Source: Tistrella mobilis
GTDB taxonomy: Bacteria > Pseudomonadota > Alphaproteobacteria > Tistrellales > Tistrellaceae
Assembly (NCBI RefSeq): GCF_041468085.1
Contig: NZ_CP121017.1
Span: 4,375,501 to 4,439,500, forward strand
Direction: 5' to 3'
Length of the DNA: 64,000 nt
In this document: in pieces, positions 18,667 through 20,484 of the stretch
Position numbering within the stretch: the first letter of the stretch is position 1
Layout: the number at the start of each line of letters is the position of its first letter
Notes under the pieces: model-generated
The model's database searches: none
What the model saw: the letters and a program-made list of their open reading frames with translations, nothing else
Told to the model about the DNA's origin: nothing
Position numbers and translations under genes: made by a program

Positions 18667-19155
18667 ATGACCGAAACGGACGGAACGCCCGCCGGAAAAG
18701 GGGCACTCGACACGGGCGATAATCCCGCGCTCAGGGCGATCTTCGGCGAAGACCACCCGCTGATCAGCCATTTCGGTCTCGAGGTGCTTGAGATCGACAA
18801 GGGCCTGGCCGTGGTGCGCCTGCCCTATCGCAGCTTCATGATCGGCAACCCCGAGACCGGCGTGCTGCACGGCGGCGTGGTCACCACGCTGATCGACAGC
18901 GCCTGCGGCATCGCGGTCTTCACCGCCCTGCCCCGGCTGCAGCCGATCGCGACGCTCGACCTGCGGATCGACTACATGCGCCCGTCCACACCGAACAAGT
19001 GGCTGCATGCCCGCGCCCGGGTGACCAGGGTCACCCCCAATGTTGCCTTCGTCACCGCCGAAGCCTGGCATGAGGGCGAGGATGGCCCGATCGCCACTGC
19101 CGCCGGCAGCTTCATGATCGGCACCAAGCTGACCCATCGCGAGGACGCCGAATGA
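18667..19155 (+). CDS. PaaI-family hotdog-fold thioesterase
   Basis: A 162-residue hotdog-fold protein. The family motif GVLHGGVVTTLIDSACG carries the HGG turn and the Asp expected for catalysis, and LDLRIDYMRP is the conserved strand after it. It probably hydrolyses an acyl-CoA; the substrate is unknown. Its stop overlaps the start of the next thioesterase by four bases (ATGA), so the pair is translationally coupled. Confidence 0.88.
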   Translation: MTETDGTPAGKGALDTGDNPALRAIFGEDHPLISHFGLEVLEIDKGLAVVRLPYRSFMIGNPETGVLHGGVVTTLIDSACGIAVFTALPRLQPIATLDLRIDYMRPSTPNKWLHARARVTRVTPNVAFVTAEAWHEGEDGPIATAAGSFMIGTKLTHREDAE

Positions 19156-19586
19156 CCAGCCTTCAGGATGCTATTGAACGGTCGCGCGCCACCGGCGACT
19201 TTGCCCCCCTGAACCAGGCAGTCCCCTATGCGCGGTTCCTGAACCTCACCGCCAATCTGGTTGAGGACGAGCTGGTGTTCCGGATGGGCTATCGTCCGGA
19301 GCATATCGGCAACCCGGTGCTTCGGGCGCTGCATGGCGGGATCATCGGCTCGCTGCTGGAAACCGCAGCCCTCTCCCACGTCACCTGGGAGATGTCTCAG
19401 GTCCGCGTGCCGAAAACGATCACCATCACGATCGATTACCTGCGCTCTGGCCGCGCGGTGGATACCTATGCCACCAGCCGGATCACCAAGATGGGCCGTC
19501 GGGTGGTCAATGTTCACACCACGGCATGGCAGGAAGACCGGGCGCGCCCGATCGCCTCGGCCATCGCCCATTTCCTGATCGATTGA
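19152..19586 (+). CDS. PaaI-family hotdog-fold thioesterase, second copy
   Basis: A 144-residue hotdog protein coupled to the previous gene. It has RALHGGIIGSLLETAAL, where Glu stands at the place of the Asp in its partner, and TITIDYLRSGRAVDTYA. The two proteins differ too much to be a recent duplication and could form a heteromer, or two enzymes of different chain length. The stop lies next to the DnaA-box-rich gap. Confidence 0.85.
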   Translation: MTSLQDAIERSRATGDFAPLNQAVPYARFLNLTANLVEDELVFRMGYRPEHIGNPVLRALHGGIIGSLLETAALSHVTWEMSQVRVPKTITITIDYLRSGRAVDTYATSRITKMGRRVVNVHTTAWQEDRARPIASAIAHFLID

Positions 19587-19761
19587 TCCGGCCTCCGGGG
19601 ATTTCATCCACATTTCGGGGAACATGTGGATGTCGAGCCTGACTCTCATCCCGATCAGATGGTTAGATCGAATTTCAGACTCTGTTCAGGGCGGATATCC
19701 GCACGGATCCCCAGATCATACACAGATTTATCCACAGACTGCGGTGGATGGTCGCAGCACC
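19587..19761. other. Cluster of DnaA-box-like sequences in a convergent intergenic gap
   Basis: The flanking genes converge on this gap of 175 bases, so no promoter is expected. It holds a perfect DnaA box TTATCCACA (19728-19736). TCATACACA (19716-19724) and TCATCCACA (19604-19612) each have one mismatch, and TGTGGATGT (19625-19633, opposite orientation) has two. Two GANTC sites (19641-19645 and 19678-19682) and an AT-richer stretch (about 19650-19690) lie between them. This could be a replication origin, a DnaA-titration site or chance; see findings. Confidence 0.4.
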
Positions 19762-20484
19762 TCAACGACCGTCAGACGAGCCGTCCGCCAGCCGGGTCGA
19801 GGCCGGCTCGATGACCGCTGCGACGGCATCGAGCAGCGCATCCCCCTGAAGCCCGGGGGCCAGCGGCGGCAGGATCTCGATCACCGCCACCCCCGGCCGC
19901 TTGTCCAGCAGGCCCTTGCCCCAGAACAGGCCGGTGTTGAGCGCCACCGGCACCACCGGCAGATCGGGGGTGGCCCGCGCCACCAGGGCAAGCCCGCGCT
20001 TGTAATCGGGCGGCGCACCGGGCGCACGGCGGGTGCCTTCGGGAAAGATGATCAGGGGCCGGCGCTCCGCCGCGCAGGCCCGGGCGGCGGTGTGCATCCG
20101 CCTGAGCGCAGACGGCCCGCGCGCCCGATCGATCGGCACCATGCCCACCCGTTTCAGATACCAGCCGAAGACTGGAATCGAGGTCAGCTCTCGCTTGAGC
20201 ACGAAGGCCGGCCGGTCGAAGAGCGCGCCCAGCACGAAGGTCTCCAGCATCGACTGATGCTTGGCGGCGACGATGAAGGGTTCGGGCGGCAGATGGGCGC
20301 GGCCGCGGATCTCGACCCTGAGGCCCACCACCAGCCTCAGCACCGCCAGGAATCCCCGGATCCACACCCGGCGCAGCCACCAGAGCGCCCCCCGGCTCCA
20401 GGCGACGGGCAGGGCGGCCAGCATGATCACCGTGCCCCAGAGATAGAAGAACAGGCTGAAGACCAGCGCCCGCACAGTAGTCAT
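19762..20484 (-). CDS. plsC: 1-acyl-sn-glycerol-3-phosphate acyltransferase
   Basis: A 240-residue membrane-bound acyltransferase that makes phosphatidic acid from lysophosphatidic acid. An N-terminal hydrophobic segment (residues about 8-28) anchors it. Motif I reads KHQSMLET, i.e. HX4E where HX4D is canonical. Motif II includes PVFGWYLKRVGMVPIDR, motif III is FPEGTRR and motif IV is VPVALNTG. Its ATG overlaps the ydcF stop by four bases, so I do not use the longer in-frame extension. It is the last gene of the coupled run from ftsE. Confidence 0.9.
   Translation of the reverse strand: MTTVRALVFSLFFYLWGTVIMLAALPVAWSRGALWWLRRVWIRGFLAVLRLVVGLRVEIRGRAHLPPEPFIVAAKHQSMLETFVLGALFDRPAFVLKRELTSIPVFGWYLKRVGMVPIDRARGPSALRRMHTAARACAAERRPLIIFPEGTRRAPGAPPDYKRGLALVARATPDLPVVPVALNTGLFWGKGLLDKRPGVAVIEILPPLAPGLQGDALLDAVAAVIEPASTRLADGSSDGR

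Follow-up and report, generated by a model that had tools for sequence, protein, structure and literature searches.

A conserved DnaA-box cluster between convergent genes of Tistrella mobilis with the layout of a variant DARS element

Does a cluster of DnaA boxes in a short gap between two convergent genes of Tistrella mobilis mark an origin of replication, or is it a site at which DnaA itself is controlled? The question arose from the initial annotation of a window of 64,000 nucleotides (G000:C4:4375501-4439500, on a replicon of 4,916,686 bp). The gap is bordered on its left by a hot-dog thioesterase gene (19152-19586, plus strand), which ends at the gap edge, and on its right by plsC, read from the minus strand, with its stop codon at 19762. 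A box scan confirmed that the cluster is real (Table 1). All four boxes initially listed are present: the perfect one at 19728-19736, the one-mismatch box at 19604-19612, the two-mismatch box of the other strand at 19625-19633, and the box at 19716-19724. This last one has a single mismatch, as had been said, when compared with TTATNCACA, where the fifth position is free, but two when compared with TTATCCACA. Two boxes had been overlooked, ATATCCGCA at 19695 and the inverted box at 19743-19751. The two GANTC sites (19641 and 19678) and the AT-richer character were found again, the GC content of the gap being 53.7%, versus about 67% around it.

Table 1. Features of the intergenic element (window coordinates; invariance is across three Tistrella species)
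Feature	Position	Strand	Remarks
Whole intergenic element	19587..19761	.	175 bp; between convergent thioesterase and plsC genes; conserved in three Tistrella genomes
Outer DnaA box TCATCCACA	19604..19612	+	1 mismatch; in palindrome; 9/9 invariant
Perfect inverted repeat, 9 bp arms, CATCCACAT-N10-ATGTGGATG	19605..19632	.	contains both outer boxes
Outer inverted DnaA box ACATCCACA	19625..19633	-	2 mismatches; head to head with 19604-19612; 8/9 invariant
IHF-like site GATCAGATGGTTA (consensus WATCARNNNNTTR, one mismatch)	19653..19665	+	50 bp outside box III
Conserved block B (includes the core)	19676..19756	.	76/81 invariant (94%); invariant runs of 28 and 29 nt
DnaA-box-like ATATCCGCA	start 19695	+	2 mismatches
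DnaA box TCATACACA, counterpart of DARS box III	19716..19724	+	9/9 invariant
Perfect DnaA box TTATCCACA, counterpart of DARS box II	19728..19736	+	3 bp from box III; 9/9 invariant
Weak inverted box GGTGGATGG (= CCATCCACC), counterpart of DARS box I	19743..19751	-	9/9 invariant

Over the entire window, TTATCCACA with at most one mismatch was observed 4 times for 3.2 expected, which is not unusual, and it is therefore the clustering that stands out. Five boxes with at most two mismatches to TTATCCACA lie in the gap, whereas the maximum elsewhere in the 64 kb is 2 per 175 bp. Among 3000 dinucleotide shuffles of the gap, 0.4% contained five such boxes, and none (0/3000) reached three when up to one mismatch to TTATNCACA was allowed.

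The density of boxes and the locally AT-richer sequence had suggested a chromosomal origin, for which a skew minimum would be expected in the gap. GC skew was sampled in 20-kb steps placed every 125 kb or closer, which gives an outline of the replicon rather than a complete profile. In this sampling the skew was negative throughout the window, so that the cumulative curve is still falling as it passes the gap; its minimum lies near 4.75 Mb and its maximum near 2.25 Mb. The polarity of KOPS-like octamers switches at the same two places. The hemE gene starts at about 4.7367 Mb, and the gap of about 0.7 kb preceding it (G000:C4, about 4735990-4736720) contains DnaA boxes, one of them perfect and several with a single mismatch, and lies where the GC skew switches. 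A box-bearing gap before hemE is the usual setting of oriC in Alphaproteobacteria, and this larger cluster, 341 kb away from the element, is likely to be the true oriC. Moreover, no replication initiator gene adjoins the element: upon inspection, its flanks were found to encode thioesterases, PlsC, a DUF218-like protein, FtsX and FtsE. The skew, the position of hemE and the KOPS polarity rule out the origin reading, and we consider the chance that the gap is a chromosomal or plasmid-derived origin to be negligible.

The same gap is present in two further Tistrella genomes, where it is found 315 kb (G002) and 277 kb (G001) from hemE. In both of them the element has the opposite orientation and is found across oriC when compared with the genome of the window. 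Such a placement on the opposite side at a similar distance is what a symmetrical inversion about the origin is expected to leave.

Conservation was measured on these three closely related species only (G000, G001 and G002); the relatives sampled belonged to the same genus and then to the class level, with none nearer outside the genus. Block A (19593-19632) was 93% invariant across the three species, close to the value of block B, the middle spacer (19634-19675) 52%, and the fourfold codon sites of the neighbouring genes 84%. In the box core (19716-19751), 35 positions out of 36 were invariant. As the box core is almost invariant and the spacer is conserved at 52% only, selection acts on the boxes and not on the whole gap. 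Conservation through coding is made less likely by a one-base indel in G001 and by the divergence of the middle. The boxes being kept in the related genomes, the proposal that the gap is a DnaA-binding locus is well supported at the level of sequence. The palindrome at 19605-19632, in which two DnaA boxes face each other with 12 bp between them, is also invariant, except for its loop.

The arrangement of the boxes in the core suggests what such binding might serve. The core reads TCATACACA-gat-TTATCCACA-gactgc-GGTGGATGG, i.e. box III, 3 bp, box II, 6 bp and an inverted box I, head to head with box II and having 3 mismatches to TTATNCACA. We took the definitions of DARS, the sites reactivating DnaA, from two reviews, according to which a DARS is functionally marked by boxes I and II standing head to head and the box spacing is equal in both E. 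coli DARS (PMC10380432; PMC5742627). Reading the loci of E. coli MG1655, we found that DARS1 and DARS2 both follow the order III-3bp-II-5bp-inverted I, DARS1 being TAATACACA-tgg-TTATCCACA-ggaat-AGTGGATAA on the reverse strand. The Tistrella core likewise has three boxes with box I opposite to II and III, the arrangement by which a DARS is defined (PMC5742627), the 3 bp between boxes II and III, and an intergenic position outside oriC. In each of the three Tistrella species boxes I and II are 6 bp apart instead of 5 bp, and for this reason we did not file the element as a strict DARS. Its core is probably a variant that functions like one.

With E. coli DARS2, in the rppH-mutH region, the gap shares the order and orientation of the boxes, the III-II spacing, an intergenic location and extra boxes beyond the core. 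On the box III side of E. coli MG1655 DARS2, the first IHF site is found 58 bp outside box III, and a sequence match to an IHF site lies on the same side in Tistrella, at 50 bp. E. coli DARS2 differs in having 5 bp between boxes II and I, two IHF sites instead of one IHF-like site, and other neighbouring genes. With DARS1, in the bioD-uvrB gap, the likeness extends to core order, orientation, III-II spacing and an identical box II, but the Tistrella gap has the 6-bp spacing and no uvrB neighbour.

A datA-like titration site had been the other reading proposed. Here the boxes, together with a loop bent by IHF, would titrate DnaA or promote the hydrolysis of its ATP (DDAH), and initiation would be lowered. 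Like datA of E. coli, the gap is a non-coding DnaA-box cluster with a possible IHF site; boxes are found on both sides of this site, and the distance to oriC is 0.28-0.34 Mb in all three species. However, the two perfect boxes of E. coli datA have the same orientation, are 162 bp apart from start to start, and form no DARS core. The gap has no strong boxes of the same orientation around its IHF-like site (boxes 2-IBS-3 of datA); its strong boxes are packed instead as in a DARS, a head-to-head pair included, and this core is the most conserved part. The arrangement thus fits a site of DnaA reactivation, not one of inactivation or titration, and a DnaA sink or datA-like element seems unlikely to us. 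Taken as a whole, the initial annotation is partly supported.

When the gap was used as query in a DNA search of the class, short matches centred at the TTATCCACA end were obtained, several of them directly upstream of uvrC. A core pattern, CACANNNTTATCCACAN{0,20}GTGGAT, leaving the II-I gap free from 0 to 20 bp, was then run on 385 alphaproteobacterial genomes. It gave 66 matches in 63 genomes, and the reversed control pattern gave none in the same 385 genomes. The II-I spacing was 5 bp in 57 of the matches, 6 bp in 3 (the Tistrella gap sites) and different in the remaining 6. Given these 66 matches, 57 of which have the E. coli spacing, and the empty control, we conclude that the class has the DARS layout as a genuine element. 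At 22 of the 30 loci inspected, uvrC was directly downstream of the core; Pelagibius, Paracoccus, Rubricella and other Alphaproteobacteria have such cores upstream of uvrC. These uvrC-linked cores resemble the gap core in their CACANNNTTATCCACA...GTGGAT composite, and differ from it by their 5-bp spacing and by adjoining uvrC, the gap core lying between plsC and the thioesterase gene.

Tistrella also has a uvrC copy, ATATACACA-tgg-TTATCCACA-gtttc-CGTGGATAT (G000:C4:1327906-1327933, minus strand), invariant in the three species. By all the sequence criteria tested it is a canonical DARS1-like core, and it is the closer counterpart of E. coli DARS1, CACATGGTTATCCACAG being identical in both. Among the genomes sampled with the core pattern, only those of Tistrella had two cores. 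The pattern is blind to cores like that of E. coli DARS2, so that second sites may exist elsewhere; a relaxed search of the class (TNATCCACA, 4-8 bp), to which E. coli DARS2 would be invisible as well, revealed no second cores beyond these. Ten other perfect DnaA-box sites inspected in the Tistrella genome showed no DARS core.

Two further explanations were considered. The gap might hold a bidirectional terminator or a small RNA, in which case hairpin arms (CATCCACAT...ATGTGGATG, ATCCAC...GTGGAT) would incidentally resemble DnaA boxes. The perfect 9-bp inverted repeat and the convergent genes are in keeping with this, and folding of the minus strand is somewhat stronger than that of shuffled sequences (z -1.8). 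However, folding of the plus strand is no better than chance, and hairpins leave unexplained both box III and the reappearance of the III-II-I order upstream of uvrC across the class, which makes the proposal improbable. Searches for specific candidates were negative: no intrinsic terminator was called in the gap, and an Rfam search of the gap returned no match, so that an intrinsic terminator and an RNA gene or Rfam family were both rejected. The second explanation is that DnaA regulates the transcription of a neighbouring gene from here. DnaA does control genes through such boxes, uvrB of E. coli being an example (PMC6015884), but both neighbouring genes end at the gap. No sigma-70-like promoter was found in the gap either, and we regard this role as very improbable.

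Tistrella DnaA retains K178, R227, D269, R281, R285 and R334, the ATPase residues checked, as well as the box-reading residues R399, D433, H434 and T435; the sole exception among the residues checked is L290, replaced by M. IHF-alpha is encoded, and so is an Hda-like protein distinct from DnaA, with a score below the curated cut-off. In the IHF-like site, 8 of the 9 consensus positions are kept within a spacer where 22 of 41 positions are conserved (p about 0.02), a statistically weak result that is suggestive only. Fis, which E. coli DARS2 requires, is reported to be confined to E. coli and its relatives among the gammaproteobacteria (PMC4245941).

The mechanism that we infer, from the binding of DnaA and IHF to the loss of ADP and its timing, is the following. 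Box II (TTATCCACA) would be occupied by ADP-DnaA, as would box III, in a head-to-tail arrangement, and box I, head to head. Contact between the AAA+ domains of the head-to-head pair would loosen ADP, and apo-DnaA would depart and reload with ATP. This would increase ATP-DnaA, and with it the initiation potential, ahead of the next round at oriC (hemE), which lies some 0.3 Mb from the element. The DNA would be bent, as at E. coli DARS2, by IHF bound some 50 bp beyond box III.

Box order, orientation, III-II spacing, conservation and the lack of an origin at this place all speak for a DARS-like site, together with the canonical uvrC core and a genome that encodes DnaA, IHF-alpha and an Hda-like protein. 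Against it stand the 6-bp II-I spacing, which differs from E. coli DARS and from 57 of the 66 matches, the weakness of box I, the dependence of E. coli DARS2 on Fis, and an IHF-like site with one mismatch and weak statistics. The best reading of the gap is a second, variant DARS which would reactivate ADP-DnaA, and on balance we find it somewhat probable that the element is a DnaA-binding regulatory site working like DARS. More tentatively, with chances that we put below even, a second, DARS2-like site may have evolved in Tistrella, one that would rely on IHF, not Fis, operate at a head-to-head spacing of 6 bp, and supplement the DARS1-like site widespread upstream of uvrC in Alphaproteobacteria.

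The mechanism of DnaA reactivation is known from E. coli. The uvrC-linked core found across the class and the Tistrella variant offer exact and small targets for testing whether DNA sites control the ADP/ATP-DnaA cycle in Alphaproteobacteria, and the 6-bp variant probes how strict the head-to-head geometry is. Similar DARS sequences are reported to be conserved in many proteobacteria (PMC10380432), so that sites outside E. coli are not new per se; our literature search found no paper on DARS in Alphaproteobacteria.

The genomic placement of the uvrC core varies within the genus. In the genome of the window, uvrC and its DARS-like core are on the 4.92-Mb main replicon, whereas in G002 they are found (G002:C4:137858-137885) on a contig of 1.13 Mb, apart from the 3.92-Mb chromosome. 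The reason may be a replicon fusion, or else a secondary replicon would carry a DnaA-reactivating site. The composite seen in the uvrC-linked cores often takes the form of a near-perfect palindrome, TTATCCACAGAWTCTGTGGATAA, in beta- and gammaproteobacteria, and uvrB is also found at some of the loci.
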